Virus record (IMG/VR): IMGVR_UViG_3300002514_000142 | Span: 9,491-31,167 of that record | Direction: 5' to 3' (one strand) | DNA from: a virus | DNA: 21,677 nt | Program-made: the position numbers and the translations under genes | The notes under the pieces: model-generated | Told to the model about the DNA's origin: nothing | The model's input: the letters and a program-made list of their open reading frames with translations, nothing else | Database searches by the model: none | Shown: positions 6,394-20,757 of the stretch, piece after piece | Numbering within the stretch: the first letter of the stretch is position 1 | How the letters are laid out: the number at the start of each line of letters is the position of its first letter

Positions 6394-6566
6394 TGTTTCA
6401 AGCAATAACAGCCGCACTATACGCTTTATTCAAAGCAATAATACCTTTCACATGGGAACGACTTAATGAATCGACTACTGCAAAAGATGCTCCCCCTGTT
6501 CCTGCTAACGTCCGTAATCGTTGGCGTCTCAGGGTGCGAAAGCACAAGAGTCGTATTCGTTCCTGA
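6393..6566 (+). CDS. Overlapping 57-aa ORF, small basic membrane-associated protein candidate
   Basis: This frame begins with an ATG sharing its A with the stop of the holin-like gene (TGATG) and ends with TGA at 6564-6566. Its last 101 bases overlap the lipoprotein gene in a different frame. The predicted 57-residue protein has a hydrophobic or amphipathic N-terminus (residues 2-20), then a short acidic and proline-bearing linker (A-K-D-A-P-P-V-P), and a strongly basic C-terminus with nine R and three K in the last 17 residues. Stop-start overlap is typical of coupled translation, and without this gene there would be a 72-base gap in an otherwise gapless region. A lysis-related role (holin partner or spanin-like) is a guess from neighbours. 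It could be a chance ORF. Confidence 0.5.
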   Translation: MFQAITAALYALFKAIIPFTWERLNESTTAKDAPPVPANVRNRWRLRVRKHKSRIRS

Positions 6567-6717
6567 AGATGATGGTCTAGTAAGACTTGGTCCCGCTATG
6601 CGGGGTCACGTCTATTTTTGGAATGGTAACTCTTGGGAGTTATCAGCCAACAAGGTTCTGCTACCAGAAGGTTGGTATGCAGGGTCTATAGAGTCGCAAG
6701 ACGAAACTACAGAGTAG
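6466..6717 (+). CDS. Small lipoprotein (lysis-cassette associated candidate)
   Basis: An 83-residue protein with a clear lipoprotein signal: basic start (MNRLLQK), a hydrophobic core (PLFLLTSVIVGV) and a lipobox V-S-G-C, with C24 the predicted lipidated residue. The mature part of about 60 residues reads S-T-R-V-V-F-V-P near its start and L-P-E-G-W-Y near the end. I recall this pattern from small unassigned phage lipoproteins, but I know no function for it. It lacks the proline-rich make-up of Rz1 and is not an evident spanin. GGGAA lies seven bases upstream of the ATG. The gene starts inside the 57-residue ORF. It might act in lysis as an outer membrane partner or in superinfection exclusion; the sequence does not decide. 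Confidence 0.75.
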   Translation: MNRLLQKMLPLFLLTSVIVGVSGCESTRVVFVPEDDGLVRLGPAMRGHVYFWNGNSWELSANKVLLPEGWYAGSIESQDETTE

Positions 6718-8521: not shown

Positions 8522-11004
8522 TGGCTTTAGTATCTAAAAGTATCTCCAATCTCATTGGCGGCGTAAGCCAACAACCGGACGCTGTTCGGTTTGATAACCA
8601 ATGTGACGCTCAGGACAATGCGTTCCCAAGCGTTCTTGATGGTTTAACCAAGCGCCAACCTACAGAGCATGTTGCAAACATAACAGGCGACTCCTCACCC
8701 CTTGATTTAACCAAGGATGCTGAGGACTTTTTTGTTCACACTATTAATAGGAGCGCAAGCAGTAGATACCTGGCGATACTGGAAGCAGACACCACCTCTT
8801 CAAACCTAAAGGTGGTTGATACAGATGGTACAGCAATTACAGTTACTGAAGCCACTACAGATGCTTTTGATTATTTACAAATCCACGCCGACAGTTCTCT
8901 AACCGCCGACACCGCTATTAGAGCCATTACAATCGCTGATTACACTTTTGTAGTTAATAGAACTAAGGTGGTTGAGATGGCTGCTGATGTGGTTACTGCT
9001 AGAAACCCAGAGGCGTTAGTCTTTGTTCGACAAGGTGCTTATGGTACTAACTATTCTTGGACGGTGGAACAAGACTCGGTTACTACTACAGACAACTACA
9101 CTACAAGTGATACCACTGCCTCGACAGTGAGTACCAAATATATTGCTGCTCAACTTATAACGACCCCTACGGGCTGTAACACCGTCACACAGTCCGGGAG
9201 TGTTCTCTGGATACAGAGTAGTGACACTACCGACTTTACTATAGATGGGTCGGATGGGATTGGGGACACCGGGCTTGCTGTGATTAAGGATGAGGTCCAA
9301 AGACTTACAGATCTTCCGACAGTAGCGCCGCACGGTTTCATAGTTAAGGTCGTGGGTGAAGCCACGGATACTCGTGATGATTATTATGTTAAGTTTGAAG
9401 CAGAGGATGAGACCTTCGGTAAAGGTGTGTGGAAGGAATCCACCCCTACTGGCATCACCTATAAGTTCGATGCTACCACAATGCCACACGTCCTTATTCG
9501 CAAGAATGCTACAGAGTTCTTATTTGCGGCTTGTGACGCTACAGACACTATCGGTCCTGATGCGGTGGCTAATGCTCTACTGCTCCCCGATTGGGGCGAA
9601 AGAAACTGTGGAGACGCAGAATCTAACAGTGATCCCACGTTTGTAACCAAGACAATCAACGATATTTTCTTATTCAAGAACCGTCTCGGTATCTTGGCTG
9701 ATGAGAACGTCATACTTAGTGAGTCGGCAGAGTTCTTTAACTTCTGGCGTACTACGGTCACCGCTGTGTTAGCGACTGATGCTATTGATATTGCTAGTAC
9801 ACATAGTACCGTCTCTATACTCACAGCCGCTATACCTTTCCACAAACAACTGGTTCTCTTCAGTGATCAGACTCAGTTCTTGTTAGGAAGTGCGGGCGCC
9901 TTATCACCTAACACAGTCACCATGACTAAGACAACTAACTACTCCTCCATTTCCCATATACGCCCCGTGACCACCGGACACTCCATATACTTCGGTTTTA
10001 ATAGAGGTGGTTATACAGGAATACGTCAATATTTCCTATCGGGGGATGCTGAGTCAATCTTTGATGCTGAGGATATCAGTGGACAAGTCCCTCAGTACAT
10101 CGAGGGAGACCTTAGAGACATGTCGGGCTCCTCTCACGAGGATATTCTGTTTGCGCTTACGAATGATAATCGAAACATGCTCTATGCTTACAAGTATTTT
10201 GATAGAGGCACTGAGAGGCTTCAGTCCTCTTGGTGCCGCTTCGTCTTTGCGGACGATGATGCGATTCTTGGTATAGAGTTTATAGATACAAGCCTTTATA
10301 TGGTGGTCAAGAGAACCGATGGGTTCTTCTTAGATAAACTTGAAATGGCTTCAGGATTGACAGATACGGGGTCTACTTATAGAACCCTGTTGGATAAGCG
10401 GTGCGACCAAAGCACAGCCACCCCTGTCTATGATATTGCCACCGATGAAACAACGATTACGTTGCCATATAAAGCCTATACGGCTTCTCCTATCGAGATG
10501 ATCACTAAGTCCGGGAGGCGTGTGACAATCAAGACACAGACCAATGCCTCCCCTACTATTGTTGTAGATGGGGACTTCTCCGCAACAGCGGCGGACACCA
10601 CCAATCGAACATACTTCATCGGTCAGAAATATGAAATGGTCTACACCTTCAGTGACGTTGTAATGAGAGAACCTAGCGACTTTGGTGGTCAGAATACGAT
10701 TGCTGAGGGCAGGGTACAGGTCCGTTACCTCACGCTTTCATATGCCTCAACAGGATACTTCTCGGTAGAAGTTACCCCCGACTATAGAGACAAAAGTACG
10801 CACCCGTTTACTGGTCGTATTTTAGGAGCGGGCAATAACTTAATAGGAAGCATTCCTTTAGATGATGGAAATTTCAAAGTACCTGTTTATTCTAAAGCAG
10901 ATCAGGTTACAATAGAATGTAAGAACGATACACCTCTCCCCTGCGCTATAAGCAGTGTTGAATTTGAGTTGTCATTAAATGCAAGAGCAAAACGATATTC
11001 TTAA
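8521..11004 (+). CDS. Tail tubular protein B (nozzle), T7 gp12-like
   Basis: Nozzle of the short tail, 827 residues (T7 gp12 has 794). Hallmarks are the N-terminal S-I-S-N-L-I-G-G-V-S-Q-Q-P-D with a following R-F segment (residues 7-24), A-D-Y-T-F-V-V-N-R near 145, the F-K-N-R-L-G-I-L-A-D-E-N-V-I-L-S-E-S stretch near 386, and a C-terminal beta-rich region ending with repeated S and A. Residues about 55-130 and 170-260 are rich in T, S and D, as in exposed beta-structures. The last 26 bases overlap the start of the next gene. No enzymatic motif is seen. Confidence 0.97.
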   Translation: MALVSKSISNLIGGVSQQPDAVRFDNQCDAQDNAFPSVLDGLTKRQPTEHVANITGDSSPLDLTKDAEDFFVHTINRSASSRYLAILEADTTSSNLKVVDTDGTAITVTEATTDAFDYLQIHADSSLTADTAIRAITIADYTFVVNRTKVVEMAADVVTARNPEALVFVRQGAYGTNYSWTVEQDSVTTTDNYTTSDTTASTVSTKYIAAQLITTPTGCNTVTQSGSVLWIQSSDTTDFTIDGSDGIGDTGLAVIKDEVQRLTDLPTVAPHGFIVKVVGEATDTRDDYYVKFEAEDETFGKGVWKESTPTGITYKFDATTMPHVLIRKNATEFLFAACDATDTIGPDAVANALLLPDWGERNCGDAESNSDPTFVTKTINDIFLFKNRLGILADENVILSESAEFFNFWRTTVTAVLATDAIDIASTHSTVSILTAAIPFHKQLVLFSDQTQFLLGSAGALSPNTVTMTKTTNYSSISHIRPVTTGHSIYFGFNRGGYTGIRQYFLSGDAESIFDAEDISGQVPQYIEGDLRDMSGSSHEDILFALTNDNRNMLYAYKYFDRGTERLQSSWCRFVFADDDAILGIEFIDTSLYMVVKRTDGFFLDKLEMASGLTDTGSTYRTLLDKRCDQSTATPVYDIATDETTITLPYKAYTASPIEMITKSGRRVTIKTQTNASPTIVVDGDFSATAADTTNRTYFIGQKYEMVYTFSDVVMREPSDFGGQNTIAEGRVQVRYLTLSYASTGYFSVEVTPDYRDKSTHPFTGRILGAGNNLIGSIPLDDGNFKVPVYSKADQVTIECKNDTPLPCAISSVEFELSLNARAKRYS

Positions 11005-11473
11005 ATTATTACCTTCCGGTATCCGATTTACTGAACCAGAAGATGTTGAGAAAATTTATAGAGACTTAAGACCGGAAGACCGAGCGGAGTGTATCGCAGG
11101 TCACGGCGACCCCCTAGAGTGCCTACAACGGGGCTATGAAAACTCTAAATATTGTTTTACCGGCTCTGTCAATGACAAGCCCTACATGATATTTGGTGTT
11201 GGTGAGGTTGAGGAACATGAGGGCGCCGGTGTAGTGTGGATGTTAGGAACAACCGCAATAAATGCCGAGGCTCGCTTTCATTTTCTAAAGCGTTCTAGGT
11301 TTTGTGTAGAGAACCTTTTACATAAAGATTTTCCGTTATTGTTTAATTGTGTGGATGCGAGAAATACCGTCCATATTAAATGGCTCAAGTGGTTAGGCTT
11401 TAAGTTTATTAACTTACACCTAAACTACGGAGTCGCAAAGTTACCTTTTTACGAATTTGTGAGGATAAAATAA
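10979..11473 (+). CDS. GNAT-fold-like virion morphogenesis protein, T7 gp13-like
   Basis: A 164-residue protein in the position of T7 gene 13, between tail tube B and the gp14-like gene. The C-terminal half reads D-A-R-N-T-V-H-I-K-W-L-K-W-L-G-F-K-F, equivalent to the N-T-x-H-I-x-x-L-K-x-x-G segment of T7 gp13 and typical of the last part of GNAT acetyltransferase folds. Upstream, V-G-E-V-E-E-H and V-V-W-M-L-G-T-T fit the central beta-strands. gp13 is needed for T7 particle morphogenesis; no acetylation activity is established for it, so acetyltransferase activity here is uncertain. The start lies 26 bases inside the tail tube B gene and no good Shine-Dalgarno sequence is visible, so coupling is likely. 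Confidence 0.8.
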   Translation: MQEQNDILKLLPSGIRFTEPEDVEKIYRDLRPEDRAECIAGHGDPLECLQRGYENSKYCFTGSVNDKPYMIFGVGEVEEHEGAGVVWMLGTTAINAEARFHFLKRSRFCVENLLHKDFPLLFNCVDARNTVHIKWLKWLGFKFINLHLNYGVAKLPFYEFVRIK

Positions 11474-11474
11474 T

Positions 11475-12233
11475 ATGTGTGATCCAGTATCGGCGGGGAT
11501 AGGTCTTGCAGTGGGTGGCGGCGTCATGGGCTACATGGGACAGAAGAAAGCCGCCAAGCAACAAAACGCCTACAACCAACAACAATACGCTCAGGAGATG
11601 GCATACAGAGCGGAGCAAGAAGCATACCAACTAGAGCAATATCTAGAGAACGCTGAAAGAGCCGCAGATGATGTTAGAAGAAACTACAAAGAGATTGATC
11701 AGCGCATCCAAGAAGAGGGTGTTGTGGCTGCTTTAGAGATAGAAGAGTTCTTCCGTCAAGGGCGCCAGATGCAATCCTCCGAACTCAGTGTCGCTGCTGA
11801 ACGTGGTGTAGAAGGGGCGACTGTAGATAACCTAATGGATAACATTAAGTATACCGAGTTGCGAGCCATATCAAACGTAAAACAAGAGCAACAGTGGCGT
11901 TTGAACCAATATGCCGCCATGAAAGAACAGGTCGAAGCACAAGGAGAAGCAAGAGTGGAATCAATGAACCCTCAGCCCCTACCGCTCCCCGCGTTACCAC
12001 AGCATCAATCAGGACCAGACCCCTTCGCCACGATGCTTAACATCGGTTCTCAAGCGTTGGGAGTCTATAACGCCTTCGCTTCCGCCCCTAACCCTGTCGC
12101 CGCCACTACCCCTCTCACTACCCCCATGAATTATCATAGAGGCAATCTGTGGAGTGGGGGCATATCACAAGGCTCCTTCGGTATGCTAGGCGGCTATCGC
12201 CCTTATTCCGTACAACCAAGTTGGGTAAATTAA
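11475..12233 (+). CDS. Internal virion protein, T7 gp14-like
   Basis: Internal core protein ejected into the host envelope at infection, where T7 gp14 forms the outer-membrane pore. The 252 residues (T7 gp14 has 196) begin M-C-D-P-V-S-A-G, with Cys2 as in T7 gp14. A glycine-rich hydrophobic segment follows (about 8-24), then a long Q/E/A-rich helical region (about 25-165) with A-A-E-R-G-V-E-G-A-T-V-D near 107, the counterpart of the short glycine-bearing turn in this family. The C-terminus is proline- and glycine-rich and probably disordered. GAGGA lies nine bases upstream of the ATG. It sits in the gp13-gp14-gp15-gp16 order of T7. Confidence 0.85.
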   Translation: MCDPVSAGIGLAVGGGVMGYMGQKKAAKQQNAYNQQQYAQEMAYRAEQEAYQLEQYLENAERAADDVRRNYKEIDQRIQEEGVVAALEIEEFFRQGRQMQSSELSVAAERGVEGATVDNLMDNIKYTELRAISNVKQEQQWRLNQYAAMKEQVEAQGEARVESMNPQPLPLPALPQHQSGPDPFATMLNIGSQALGVYNAFASAPNPVAATTPLTTPMNYHRGNLWSGGISQGSFGMLGGYRPYSVQPSWVN

Positions 12234-14784: not shown

Positions 14785-17700
14785 ATGCAATTTAATTTTG
14801 AAAATAATATAGAAGGTGCCCAACAAGACCTCGGCTTCTGGGGAACCGCCGGAGACATTGCAGCCGCTCCCTTCAGGGGGCTCGCAGGAGCAGCCGAAGG
14901 TGTCTATGACCTAGCCGATTGGGTTCTTCAAGATTGGCTACCAGACGCTGAAGACAACTTCGGTCTTGGTCACTCTCAAACAATGGCGGGTGGTCTTGTT
15001 GAAGGCATGTCTCAGTTCCTAACTGGCTTTGTGCCGGGCATGGGGCTCGTAGGATGGGCAGGACGGGGCTTAGGCGTAGCCAGTAAGATGGGCAAAGGTG
15101 GTCAGATACTTAAAGCAGGAAGCGTCACAAGAGCAGCACAAGCAGCCACAGCAGCCGGGAAATTTAAGAAAGCAAAAGCAATCGAGTGGGGCGGTCAGTT
15201 TGGTAAGGCATCTATAGCCGGTGGCATCGCGGACATGACTGTCTTTGATGCTCACGAACAACGACTAAGTAACCTACTTCAGATGTACCCCTCTCTACAG
15301 AACCCAGTAAGTGAGTTCTTAGCAGCAGACCCTAACGACTCCGAAATGGAAGGTCGCCTTAAGAACTTCCTAGAAGGTGGTATCCTCGGCTTCGCTGTGG
15401 AACCCTTCGTCATGGGACTCAAGTCTATTAAGGCAGCAAGAAGTGCCAAGTCAGCCGGGGTAGACCCAGAGAAGGCTGTGAGCCTCGTCATGGGTGCTGA
15501 GAGACAACGTAAGGTTGAGTCTATCTTCCCACACCTTAGGGCTGAAGAAGCCACAGCAGCCGATGCTGTAGCCCGCTCAATGGGCTTTGATGTGCTTGAT
15601 GATTCCTTCCGCTTTGACCAAGGCGGTGACATTGGGACTACAGCACTCCGTCAGATGCCTGATGGAACTACAAAAGAAACACGCCTACTCGGCACATTCA
15701 CATCCAAACTTAATGATGTTCTTAGAGATATGTCGCAACGTAAGCAATCCGCTTCCCAACTGCGAGGCGCTCTCAAGAAACAGGGTGTTAAAGATGATGA
15801 GGTATATTGGTCAGGGCTTGATGATTATCTCAAGGAAAACCCCAAGGTTAATCTTGATGAGGCTATGGAATCTATAGGTAACATTAGGTTAGAAGAAGTA
15901 GCGAGGGGGGCTAACACTCCGAAAGAGGTAATACACGACCAATGGACTCTTCCCGGCGGAAGTGACCAAACCGAACTGTTGATTACTTGGGGTGGCGATC
16001 CGGCTAACTTCCGAGCCCGTAGTACTCCTGTGGTTCATAATCTGGATGCTACATCGGGTCTCTATGAGGATGGAATGCGATACAAAATAAAGACAGGAAC
16101 CGCGCTAGATGATCTGGACACGTTTGTATATGGAGCAACAAAAGAAGAAGCATTGGAAAAATGGAGAGCCCAAGACCAAGTAAAATTCAAAGAAAGCGGG
16201 CACTGGAGCGAAGCCAATGTTCTTGGGTGGACTCGGTTCAATACACGAAAGGGTCCCAAAGGCGAGAAGGTTCTCTTCATTGAGGAACTACAAAGCGATT
16301 GGCACCAACGAGGACGGCAATCCGGATATGCGGGGGATATTGAGGAAACTTGGGGCTTCCGATGGCACATAGAGGATACCGAGGCGCGAAGAGCGGCGAA
16401 CAACCCGGCTTATATTACTGTTGATGTTGATAGAAAACATGCTCCGTGGGATACTTTCCTTATACCTTCCTACAAAACAAAAGCAAACGCAGAAAAAGCC
16501 CTTAATAAAAAGTTTACACTTGATTCGTTTACTATACGTCCGCAAGCGTTTGATGGATCGATCCGGATAAATATTTTGGGCTCTGACGGCATGACTAGGT
16601 CACTATATTTTCCAGCAATTCCGCAATCGGCAGATGGATCGAGCCGGATAGATATTAGGGGCTCTGATGCTCTCCGAGTATCTGTAATGACCGACCGAGC
16701 CCAATTAACAAAGTGGTTCGGAGAAGATGCGGCTGACGACCTTATTGAAGGTTGGAGAGGTTGGTATACAAAGAGGGGGCTTGAAGATGATGTAGCCGTA
16801 GACTTCAAAAACAAAAAGCACGAGTTATTTGTATTTCCAGAAGACGTTCGGAAAGCCGGAGTCGCTAGGCGTACTACAGAACTCGGTAGTAACGATGGAC
16901 CTCCTCAGGCACCTTTCAAGAAAACATGGGACTCTCTTCTTATGAAGCGTATGATATCCCACGCTGTAGACAATGATTTTGATGCTATCGCATGGACTAC
17001 CGGAAAGCAACAATCAGATAGATGGGGCGGTCAAGAAGGTCTTGCGAAGTTCTACGACAATATACTTCCTAAAACAGCCAATAAGATTGGTAAGAAGTTT
17101 GGTGCTAGGGTTACTAAAGAGCCGCTTAAAAGAAATGAGAGTAATGTAACTTTGGTGGAGAAGGTGGAACTCAAAATTGAGCAGACGCAACCCTACATGA
17201 AACTCACTGCCGAACTAAAAGCATCCGTCAAAGAACGCGGTCAGCGACTCTTCCAAGACGAAGGCGTTGGACCCAAGGGTGCTGTAGACTTTGAAGCCGA
17301 TGGCAAAGCCGTCATCAACTTCTTTGAAGGCGCCGACGTCTCCACAGCAGTCCACGAAGTAGCCCACGTCGCTAGACGACGCTTATTCGATACTACCGTA
17401 GACCAAACAAACCGTCTCGGTATTGCTGATGCAGACATTCGCGTAGCCGAAGAGTGGTCAGGAGCAACACGTAATAAAGATGGTACTGCCAAGTGGTCTG
17501 TAGCCGCAGAAGAAAAGTTTGCCCGTGGTTTCGAGAAGTATCTCAAGACCGGTAAGGCACCTAACGATGCTCTGAAGGATATCTTCAGTAAGTTCGCAGG
17601 ATGGCTTAAGGGTATCTATGATCACGTAGCGGGCAACGCTGTAGATGATATTAAGATATCTCCAGAGATGAAGGAAGTCTTTGATAAACTTGTTAGCCGT

Positions 17701-20700
17701 GGCGACATTGATACCGTAAGGGTGCCGATGGAAGTCCCTGCTCCTAGAGCAGCGGCTGCTGTTGAGGCGCCCTCCGCAATCAAGGATTACCAAACACGAT
17801 TAGAAACTGAGCATGGTGCCGATTGGCAAGCCAACGCAAAGCCAGGACAACTGAGGCATCTTAAGAAACTAGAGTCTGCTGAAAATCGCACACTCTTCCA
17901 AAGCGGAGAGCCTGGGTATCGTAAAGGTGCTTCACCACCTCCTGAGGGAACAAGCAGAGGTCTTAACTTAGACAAGATGGCACACGGTGCTGAGGTTCGT
18001 GCAGCACTTGATGCTTTACCAGAAGACCTAAGAAACGCTGCCTACGAACATATCGACAGGGGTGGTCCACTACCTACGATTACTGATGCAGACGTTGTTG
18101 AACAAGGACAGTTCTGGGCAAGTGTTCTCGGTAGAGACGAAGACGCTACACAAGCAATGCTCCGCCAACACCTTCAAGAAGGCAGCGCCTGGATAGCCGC
18201 ACAACAAGCACTCCGTAATTGGGCAGACACGTTGGTGGGGGATGTCGTTGAGACACAGACGCGGCTTAAAAATGTAGGGGACACCCACGAAGACCTTGTT
18301 CACCTATTGATGCAATCCATCCAAGCAAAACAATTTATTGAAGCATCTAGATCAGGAGGCTCTTTAGCGGGCATGGGTCTACAACGCCAGAACAGAATGG
18401 CGGGGTGGGATACACGTCCCGGTGCTAAACCACGTCCCGAACCTACAAGTACAGGTACGGGTACAGGTACGGGTACAGGCGGCACTCCCCATAGCAAGGT
18501 AATGCCTGAGTCTATGTATCGAGGAGACAGTCCCGACGCAATACGGGTACGTGAGGAAATTATTAAGACCCACGGTGGAGGCTCTTTAGAAAAGGGCATT
18601 AAGAACATTAAGAAACTGGCGTCTGAGGTATCCTCTATTAAAGATAACCACGGAACTGGTGCGGCACTGAAGCACTTAGATGAACGTGCAAGAATGCCTC
18701 AGATGCTAGTGGAATACTGGATTAACTCCATTCTCTCCGGTCCACTCACTCACGCAGTCAACATGACATCAAACACTCTTAATACCTTGTTTATGCCCTT
18801 CGAGCAATTCATGGGCGATCTACTCACCTTAAAATGGGACAAGGCTTTTGGGGAAGACTTACAGATGTATGCTCATCTCGCCTCCTCATTACAGGATGCA
18901 ACCAAGGCAGCAGGGGCTGCTTGGAAGAACTGGGGAGATTCCCTAGATGTCATGGGTAAGATTGATGTTGATAACGTAGGTAGAGGAAGAGCCCTTTCCG
19001 CTAAGAATATGCCGCGTGTTGCTAACACGATTGGCGAAAGCGCTACCGATTGGATTGGTAAACAATTAAACCTTCCAAGCCGTCTCTTAATGGCGGAAGA
19101 TGCTTTCTTTAAGCACCTAAATTATAGAGCCACAGTAAAAGGCGGCTTAACTAAGGAAGGTATCAAAGCCGGGATGCGTGGTGCTGCATTAGATGCACAT
19201 GTTAAAACAAACTTCGATAAGATGATTAAGGACGGACAGTTCTATACTTATACTGGTATGCGTACTAAAGCAGAGGCAGAAGCCCGTGCTGCACACAGTA
19301 AGGTGGAAGATCTAGAAGAACGTACAAAACTTATCCAAAGTCATATTCTTAATTACATGGAAAAGAACTGGAATGATGACCACGGTGTCCTCGCTAAACA
19401 GGCTTTGGATTATGGACGAGAGATTACATACACTCAGTCATTAGATGACCCAGGACGTAACGCCGCTGTAAGAGCAGCCGGTGGGTTCAACAGGTGGGTG
19501 AATGATTACCCAATCCTGCGCCTCGTCTCCCCATTCGTTCGTACACCTACGAACCTTCTCGCATTCTATGTCAAAAGGAGCGTGGTGGGGTCTGGGTGGG
19601 ATGCCTTCAAACATATCGAGGGTGGTATTAAAACCCGCGAGATGCGCCGAGTCTCTAAAGAGATGGCGGAAGAGTTCGCTGATAAATCAAGTGATATCGT
19701 TGGAAGAGTAGCCACAGGTTCTATGTTGACCTTCGGCGCCATTATGGGCGTTCAGTCTGGCAACTTAACTGGTGGTGGACCTAAAGACCCTGAGAAGCGT
19801 CGCATGATGGAAGCCCAAGGTTGGCAACCATACAGTATCCGAGTTGGTGATGCCTGGTGGTCCTACAAACGCTTTGATCCCTTCGCTAACTTCCTCGGCG
19901 TAATAGCCGACATTGCTGAAGCCACCAACGAAGTGGATGGGGATGAGATGTCTATGATAGATACTATAACATCCCACGCCATCTTTGCTGCCTCCCGTAA
20001 CGTGATGAGTAAGTCATATCTAACAGGGCTTGCTAGAGTCGCTAACGTCCTCTCTCAACCAGAGAGATATGGTGAAAGTTATATGGAAGCAACCGTGTCA
20101 TCCTTTTTACCGATGTCCGGTCTCGCCTCCCAAACCTTCGGCAACGCTGAACACCAATTAGAAATCAGAGGCGTCCTTGATGCCATGAGGGCTAAGTATG
20201 GCTTAACCTCCGAAGACTCTAAGTTACTTGGTGTTATTCCTGTGGGAGATACGCGGATAGAAAGCAAGCGAAACGTCTTTGGTGAGAAGTTGGACAGACC
20301 ACAACCACTATACAACACACTACCAATACATCGGTCTGAGATTAAGGATGATAAGGTTCTTAAGGAACTGAGTAACATCAACGCTTCCTTTGGACCTCCT
20401 AAGAAAATACGGAATGGTATTAACACCGTGTTGTTTACTAATCGTTCCGGTCAGACATTCTATGACCGATGGCAAGAGAATCATGGTAAAGTAAGGCTGA
20501 GAGGGCGTACCTTGAAGCAAGCAGTCAGAGACCTTATGCGGTCTGCTGCCTACAACCGTTTATCCGAACAACCCTTTGAAGGCGATGAGTCACCCAGGGT
20601 TGGTGAGATACGGAAACTTATTCGCAAATATCGTAATGCAGCATATAGCACCACACTTCGGGAGTTTCCTGAAGTTGATCGCCAAGACCGCCGCAACACA

Positions 20701-20757
20701 CAAATCGACATCTATCGTAAATCTGGAAGAGATATCCAGGGTCTTCTGGAATATTAA
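14785..20757 (+). CDS. Giant internal virion protein, gp16-like 'polyvalent' protein with metallopeptidase domain
   Basis: The 1990-residue product sits in the T7 gp16 position (1318 residues in T7). Domains by eye: an N-terminal helical and hydrophobic region (1-225) with L-A-A-D-P-N-D near 175-182; a Q-L-R-G-A-L-K-K-Q-G-V segment (about 325-335) common in polyvalent proteins; an E-L-Q-S-D-W-H module (501-507) completed by A-W-T-T-G-K-Q-Q near 735, of unknown function; and an HExxH metallopeptidase-like domain (H857-E858-x-x-H861, candidate third ligand E909 or E910). Next come a Thr-Gly linker (1223-1232) and a conserved C-terminal part with Y-W-I-N-S-I-L-S-G-P near 1310, F-V-R-T-P-T-N-L-L near 1584 and W-W-S-Y-K-R-F-D-P near 1692. 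No SLT transglycosylase signature is visible, unlike T7 gp16. It is presumably packaged in the core and ejected. The ribosome binding site is weak (AAAGAG). Confidence 0.9.
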   Translation: MQFNFENNIEGAQQDLGFWGTAGDIAAAPFRGLAGAAEGVYDLADWVLQDWLPDAEDNFGLGHSQTMAGGLVEGMSQFLTGFVPGMGLVGWAGRGLGVASKMGKGGQILKAGSVTRAAQAATAAGKFKKAKAIEWGGQFGKASIAGGIADMTVFDAHEQRLSNLLQMYPSLQNPVSEFLAADPNDSEMEGRLKNFLEGGILGFAVEPFVMGLKSIKAARSAKSAGVDPEKAVSLVMGAERQRKVESIFPHLRAEEATAADAVARSMGFDVLDDSFRFDQGGDIGTTALRQMPDGTTKETRLLGTFTSKLNDVLRDMSQRKQSASQLRGALKKQGVKDDEVYWSGLDDYLKENPKVNLDEAMESIGNIRLEEVARGANTPKEVIHDQWTLPGGSDQTELLITWGGDPANFRARSTPVVHNLDATSGLYEDGMRYKIKTGTALDDLDTFVYGATKEEALEKWRAQDQVKFKESGHWSEANVLGWTRFNTRKGPKGEKVLFIEELQSDWHQRGRQSGYAGDIEETWGFRWHIEDTEARRAANNPAYITVDVDRKHAPWDTFLIPSYKTKANAEKALNKKFTLDSFTIRPQAFDGSIRINILGSDGMTRSLYFPAIPQSADGSSRIDIRGSDALRVSVMTDRAQLTKWFGEDAADDLIEGWRGWYTKRGLEDDVAVDFKNKKHELFVFPEDVRKAGVARRTTELGSNDGPPQAPFKKTWDSLLMKRMISHAVDNDFDAIAWTTGKQQSDRWGGQEGLAKFYDNILPKTANKIGKKFGARVTKEPLKRNESNVTLVEKVELKIEQTQPYMKLTAELKASVKERGQRLFQDEGVGPKGAVDFEADGKAVINFFEGADVSTAVHEVAHVARRRLFDTTVDQTNRLGIADADIRVAEEWSGATRNKDGTAKWSVAAEEKFARGFEKYLKTGKAPNDALKDIFSKFAGWLKGIYDHVAGNAVDDIKISPEMKEVFDKLVSRGDIDTVRVPMEVPAPRAAAAVEAPSAIKDYQTRLETEHGADWQANAKPGQLRHLKKLESAENRTLFQSGEPGYRKGASPPPEGTSRGLNLDKMAHGAEVRAALDALPEDLRNAAYEHIDRGGPLPTITDADVVEQGQFWASVLGRDEDATQAMLRQHLQEGSAWIAAQQALRNWADTLVGDVVETQTRLKNVGDTHEDLVHLLMQSIQAKQFIEASRSGGSLAGMGLQRQNRMAGWDTRPGAKPRPEPTSTGTGTGTGTGGTPHSKVMPESMYRGDSPDAIRVREEIIKTHGGGSLEKGIKNIKKLASEVSSIKDNHGTGAALKHLDERARMPQMLVEYWINSILSGPLTHAVNMTSNTLNTLFMPFEQFMGDLLTLKWDKAFGEDLQMYAHLASSLQDATKAAGAAWKNWGDSLDVMGKIDVDNVGRGRALSAKNMPRVANTIGESATDWIGKQLNLPSRLLMAEDAFFKHLNYRATVKGGLTKEGIKAGMRGAALDAHVKTNFDKMIKDGQFYTYTGMRTKAEAEARAAHSKVEDLEERTKLIQSHILNYMEKNWNDDHGVLAKQALDYGREITYTQSLDDPGRNAAVRAAGGFNRWVNDYPILRLVSPFVRTPTNLLAFYVKRSVVGSGWDAFKHIEGGIKTREMRRVSKEMAEEFADKSSDIVGRVATGSMLTFGAIMGVQSGNLTGGGPKDPEKRRMMEAQGWQPYSIRVGDAWWSYKRFDPFANFLGVIADIAEATNEVDGDEMSMIDTITSHAIFAASRNVMSKSYLTGLARVANVLSQPERYGESYMEATVSSFLPMSGLASQTFGNAEHQLEIRGVLDAMRAKYGLTSEDSKLLGVIPVGDTRIESKRNVFGEKLDRPQPLYNTLPIHRSEIKDDKVLKELSNINASFGPPKKIRNGINTVLFTNRSGQTFYDRWQENHGKVRLRGRTLKQAVRDLMRSAAYNRLSEQPFEGDESPRVGEIRKLIRKYRNAAYSTTLREFPEVDRQDRRNTQIDIYRKSGRDIQGLLEY
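16540..16670 (+). repeat. In-frame duplication within the gp16-like gene (two copies 81 bases apart)
   Basis: Bases 16540-16589 and 16621-16670 match at about 40 of 50 positions, with an offset of exactly 81 bases (27 codons). Both copies encode a P-Q-x-x-D-G-S-x-R-I-x-I-x-G-S-D motif. It looks like an old tandem duplication of a beta-strand unit inside the insertion that splits the E-L-Q-S-D-W-H module. Confidence 0.85.
18451..18480 (+). repeat. Thr-Gly coding microsatellite
   Basis: Two and a half copies of a 12-base unit (acaggtacgggt) encode five Thr-Gly pairs at residues 1223-1232 of the gp16-like protein. It lies between the middle region and the conserved C-terminal part and probably acts as a flexible linker. 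Because six-base units keep the frame, length changes would be tolerated. Confidence 0.85.

Follow-up and report, generated by a model that had tools for sequence, protein, structure and literature searches.

A predicted zincin-like metallopeptidase domain in an exchangeable cargo slot of a T7-type internal virion protein

Zincin-like metallopeptidase domains of polyvalent proteins were predicted for phages in 2017, with a core of one helix, three strands, a helix carrying HExxH and a helix carrying a glutamate, and with a reported HExxxH variant (Iyer et al. 2017, PMC5512222). A glutamate-helix motif, (E,H)xx(A,F,T,S,G), has been given for ArdC, Spartan and IrrE, and the virion RNA polymerase of phage N4, which contains an HExxH domain (C1), has been purified and studied as a full-length protein. 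Here we analyze a stretch of 21,677 nucleotides (the window; positions 9,491 to 31,167) of the 31,167-base IMG/VR virus record IMGVR_UViG_3300002514_000142, in which a gp16-like internal virion protein of 1,990 residues carries a domain with the sequence hallmarks of this kind of metallopeptidase. The middle of this protein is cargo, built into a backbone that other proteins have without it, and the metallopeptidase-like domains found in the slot are swapped or absent between close relatives, often as the sole insertion.

Window positions 17341-17535 (+) translate in frame to residues 853-917 of the open reading frame at 14785-20757 (+), STAVHEVAHVARRRL...WSVAAEEKFARGFE, and hold both H857-E-V-A-H861 and AEEKFARGFE (908-917; E909-E-K-F-A-R-G-F-E917). 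HEVAH and the glutamates E909, E910 and E917 lie where the original prediction, made from the letters of this DNA, had placed them, and frame and translation agree. The interval it gave contains both motifs, but the domain itself is larger, spanning about residues 809-971 (window 17209-17697). HEVAH (857-861) is the only HExxH in the protein, which is weak evidence when taken alone because 4% of shuffled copies (one in 25) also have one.

A motif that arose by chance, without any site behind it, is what those shuffled copies would allow, and we consider it practically out of the question, as conservation already refutes it. H857, E858, H861, E910, G923 and Y945 show no variation across 95 aligned relatives at about 30% identity, A913 is present in 94 and E917 in 93 of the 95, and the predicted fold is coherent. 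Within the 80 IMG/VR relatives, eight have HExxxH in place of HExxH. The relatives were gathered partly by the pattern around E910, and the count was redone on 32 rows without that pattern; H857, E858, H861, E910, Y919, G923 and Y945 were all still invariant. Comparison of the window with a second sequence, L003, gave eight synonymous changes and one nonsynonymous change in the domain, a ratio of nonsynonymous to synonymous rates (dN/dS) of 0.035, against 0.16 in the C-terminal backbone and 0.66 in the fast-evolving accessory cargo of the same protein. The domain is under strong purifying selection.

An AlphaFold2 model of residues 790-1000, built with 70 sequences in the alignment, has a mean predicted local distance difference test score (pLDDT) of 81, with most core blocks above 88. 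In model numbering the order is helix 20-29, strands 32-36, 41-47 and 53-57, helix 63-78 and helix 117-132; HExxH (68-72) is in helix 63-78 and E910 (121) in helix 117-132. With both histidines on one predicted helix and E910 on the following one, the fold does not preclude a zinc site, and homologs lacking H857, E858, H861 or E910 did not appear among the 95 relatives, these being the two findings that the original prediction had named as speaking against it. Its two candidate glutamates fared differently: E910-x-x-A913 matches the gluzincin glutamate-helix motif and E910 is the likely third ligand, whereas E917 is probably not a ligand because E910-K-F-A913 fits that motif. Motif, conservation and predicted fold order thus agree with a zinc metallopeptidase-like domain (gluzincin/zincin, polyvalent-protein type) in the gp16-like protein, and among predicted viral structures (BFVD) the model has matches at E 6e-10 named polyvalent or ‘crystallin beta/gamma’ proteins. 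By sequence and model we assign the domain to a known family kind, the zincin-like metallopeptidases of polyvalent proteins, and residues 809-971 very probably form a metallopeptidase-type site.

To place the domain within its carrier we gathered 80 backbone relatives, of which 46, falling into 25 clusters at 60% identity, are complete. Residues 5-220 of L104, a relative of 1,192 residues without HExxH, align with residues 1-232 of the window protein and residues 331-1192 with 1124-1990, so that the window protein has about 890 residues where L104 has about 110. Another relative, L103 (1,503 residues), is collinear with L104 except for an insert of about 292 residues in the same slot, with another HExxH. 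No module has been added in 13 of the 46 complete proteins, and 32 of the 33 with an added module have HExxH. The motif therefore lies between the backbone parts in 32 of 46 proteins (shuffles: mean 0.2, maximum 3), and the backbone parts themselves contain none in 41,365 residues. Spacing between the backbone parts separates the proteins in the same way: none of the 13 with 245-498 residues has HExxH, all 16 with 546-664 residues have exactly one, and 16 of the 17 with longer spacing have one or two. The exception, L125, is the sole large-cargo relative without HExxH; it has an LYHQTDGH stretch, of which LYHQT is, by sequence, reminiscent of ADP-ribosyltransferases (ART-PolyVal domains).

The slot holds at least four HExxH classes, distinguished by motif and context: A (that of the window), B (HExWH...DE[YWF]xAE), C (HE[IM]LH...LDEFL) and D (HE[SG]TH). 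One cluster of 14 close relatives contains classes B, C and D, and L104, without HExxH, falls into one cluster with L105, which has HEIWH. When class A was compared by hhalign, values were 39-85% against B, depending on the alignment, and 58% against C, mainly over the strand-plus-HExxH part, and there was none against D; for this reason we do not claim common descent of the four classes. The AlphaFold2 model of class B is poor (mean pLDDT 57). Most entries of its second-look structural list are zincins (anthrax lethal factor, PPEP-1/Zmp1, IrrE), but all entries lie at Z <=5 and are partly aligned to a non-catalytic toxin part, so that the list offers mild, model-based support for a zincin. 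A relocated class A or B domain was looked for, and not found, in the available fragments of eight cargo-less relatives, whose records may be incomplete. At or near two cargo-less backbone genes (L168, L169) there are reading frames that match the class D metallopeptidase profile weakly (E 1e-4 to 9e-4) and have no HExxH, possibly a degenerate copy.

The backbone of the window protein (residues 1-240 and about 1124-1990) is common to internal virion protein D of pelagiphage HTVC011P, roseophage CRP-227 and Desulfovibrio phage ProddE, proteins of 1,230-1,303 residues without HExxH. Similarity between the C-terminal backbone profile and the single T7 gp16 sequence was not detectable; the name gp16-like therefore rests on relatives annotated as such and on gene order, which is 13-14-15-16-17 as in T7, with a tail fibre gene downstream of the 1,990-residue gene. 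As to an N-terminal transglycosylase, neither Pfam nor NCBIfam gave a match at any point of the protein.

We propose that H857, H861 and E910 would hold a metal ion, probably zinc, and that E858 would activate water. Built as cargo into a T7-gp16-like ejection protein, the domain would probably reach the host together with the earliest DNA and there, early in infection, most likely cut at least one host protein. This gluzincin-type cargo, ejected to cut host protein, is the best overall explanation by a modest preponderance; for a host-directed protease as the main role, taken by itself, the chances appear evenly balanced. Several points weigh against the proposal. Ejection of the carrier is likely, and is judged from gene position and relatives only. 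Pfam, NCBIfam and PDB sequence searches with the window protein gave no family match, the domain profile had chance-level matches only in the PDB, and Foldseek of the model against the PDB gave no match at E<=0.001, which is not evidence for a new fold. The best row of the second-look structural list is oligoendopeptidase F (Z 4.2), and all Z values in it are too low to decide. Finally, the related domain and site of ArdC are dispensable for its tested function, and the N4 polymerase with its HExxH domain is packaged unprocessed, for which reasons we are cautious about assuming activity.

The same structural list includes 8s5f, an HExxH oxygenase domain (Z 2.7), and the N4 authors name another HExxH enzyme class for C1. 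An Fe(II)/alpha-ketoglutarate-type oxygenase instead of a peptidase is nevertheless very improbable here, given that M3 and M1 peptidases are in that list too (oligoendopeptidase F; ERAP1, Z 2.8; IRAP, Z 2.1) and that gluzincins have this core order and ExxA motif. Somewhat less remote, but still improbable, is a metal-binding or scaffold domain without peptidase activity that serves packaging or DNA contact: ArdC E229A retains antirestriction function, yet a purely structural domain does not need the catalytic base E858, which is invariant in 95 of 95, and relatives without the domain exist.

Self-processing deserves more weight, although we regard it as rather unlikely. In this reading the domain would cut the polypeptide to which it belongs, or core proteins next to it, either ahead of packaging or once entry has occurred, freeing the accessory module at residues 241-800. 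Such a role has been put forward for polyvalent metallopeptidases, with the processed P1 DdrB as example (Iyer et al. 2017, PMC5512222), and in the window protein the domain sits between the accessory module and the C-terminal backbone; in multi-module proteins of this sort, the idea keeps some room. However, the metallopeptidase is apparently the sole added module in all 16 proteins with the smallest inserts, which leaves little else to free, and the unprocessed packaging of the N4 polymerase points the same way. The 13 complete relatives lacking the domain in this protein, with none found in their available fragments, also speak against a necessary function in core protein processing, one of two roles that the original prediction had offered, the other being to disarm a host defence. 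The insert behaves like an accessory effector and not like a part of the ejection machine, because it often consists of a metallopeptidase only, can be replaced by other classes and is absent from close relatives. This favours an accessory injected protease that acts in the host over an obligatory core-processing one.

When occupied, this dedicated slot contains a metallopeptidase in nearly every case, of one of at least four swapped classes, which suggests, tentatively, that a large group of environmental phages of the T7 type could inject a host-directed protease as a general, fast-evolving strategy. Should this hold, delivery of a protease would come before the reading of any phage gene, and the host protein targeted would matter enough to draw attack from several protease classes. 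Pairs that differ in presence or class of the insert, such as L104 without and L105 with it, are natural controls that make the role of polyvalent metallopeptidases testable. The main text of PMC5512222 does not mention gp16, BPP-1 or internal virion proteins, and in the open literature we found no description of a metallopeptidase slot in T7-type internal virion proteins, which is weak evidence of novelty because most subscription papers lay outside the search. What appears to be new here is that the position inside a T7-type internal virion protein is interchangeable.

Table 1 Positions in the window of the domain, its carrier protein and the neighbouring virion genes
Feature	Position	Strand	Basis
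gp13-like protein	10979..11473	+	PF11090 T7 Gp13 E 3e-4 (below cut-off); phrog_308 internal virion protein E 2e-37
gp14-like internal virion protein	11475..12233	+	PF24072 T7_gp14 E 7e-24 (above cut-off)
gp15-position protein, 845 residues	12237..14774	+	Follows the gp14-like and precedes the gp16-like gene; neither PHROG nor Pfam gave a match
gp16-like internal virion (ejection) protein with inserted cargo, 1,990 residues	14785..20757	+	Open reading frame; both terminal parts match internal virion protein D; phrog_6651 internal virion protein E 1e-56
N-terminal backbone, residues 1-240	14785..15504	+	52% identical to the matching part of L104; common to HTVC011P, CRP-227, ProddE
Accessory cargo, residues 241-800, contains FIEELQSDWHQ	15505..17184	+	No Pfam match; dN/dS 0.66
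Metallopeptidase-like domain, residues 809-971	17209..17697	+	AlphaFold2 model of residues 790-1000; phrog_9880 match at residues 785-971; 44 phage records by tblastn
HEVAH, residues 857-861, predicted metal-binding His pair and catalytic Glu	17353..17367	+	Invariant in 95 relatives; in model helix 63-78
E910-K-F-A913, predicted third ligand, glutamate helix (ExxA)	17512..17523	+	E910 in 95/95; model helix 117-132
Y945, invariant tyrosine	17617..17619	+	95/95 relatives
C-terminal backbone, residues 1124-1990	18154..20757	+	47% identical to L104 331-1192

The accessory cargo has only weak GNAT-like matches, in the proteins of two distant relatives, and is possibly GNAT-like. It also has a GLAKFYDNILPK stretch, and sequences related to parts of it are present in several giant phage proteins (L026, L058, L070, L092, L093 and others), with no Pfam family. 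Elsewhere in the window, an 83-residue protein ahead of the major capsid gene (6466-6717) has a lipobox-like VSGC near its N-terminus and no Pfam match, and by sequence is a possible lipoprotein. A PD-(D/E)XK endonuclease-like reading frame at 1660-2109 (PF11645, E 9e-5, below cut-off) overlaps a reading frame in another frame.

Beyond the backbone relatives, the domain region matches a PHROG without assigned function, phrog_9880, at E 9e-24, and Bbp10 of Bordetella phage BPP-1 is among the tblastn hits. The domain is also present in Caulobacter phage Jess A, a cultivable relative whose laboratory host is C. vibrioides CB15. In the records examined the carriers are giant proteins of about 1,970-4,000 residues in the structural gene cluster, several of them directly downstream of a lysozyme gene. 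This family of giant phage proteins (L006-L019) has been deposited under names that disagree with one another (lysin, lysis protein, methyltransferase, coil containing protein, crystallin beta/gamma motif protein), none of them backed by the domain content found. Among at least 116 matches in bacterial genome contigs is one, probably prophage-derived, on a contig of a Rickettsia endosymbiont of Bradysia coprophila (L205).

Four described systems can be set beside the window protein. ArdC of plasmid R388 is likewise a mobile-element protein with HExxH and an (E,H)xx(A..) gluzincin site, but is a small conjugation protein with a single-stranded DNA-binding domain, and no sequence match between it and the window domain was recovered. 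The N4 virion RNA polymerase is, like the presumed carrier here, an ejected giant protein with an HExxH domain (C1, residues 2124-2375), with a similar lead-in, G..F...TIYL...S.ETLIHELVH. Classes C and D of the sibling proteins match the N4 polymerase family profile at this C1 metallopeptidase region, whereas class A of the window gives only a marginal match (hhalign probability of 4% with the single N4 sequence), and the N4 carrier is an RNA polymerase. The phrog_9880 proteins, such as BPP-1 Bbp10, share the domain at about 30% identity with identical invariant residues; they have no detectable similarity to the backbone of the window protein, and BPP-1 has Pfam LPD22 and PBECR1 domains, neither of which the window protein has. 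Closest are the metallopeptidases of polyvalent proteins. Common to both are HExxH on the first C-terminal helix, a conserved glutamate on the second (here E910), an N-terminal helix and three-stranded sheet ahead of the HExxH helix as in our predicted model, the occurrence of the HExxxH variant, and a giant multidomain protein encoded beside virion genes, here in gp13-gp17-like order. What sets the present case apart is the carrier, an internal virion protein of the T7-gp16 type that has a defined slot for insertions.
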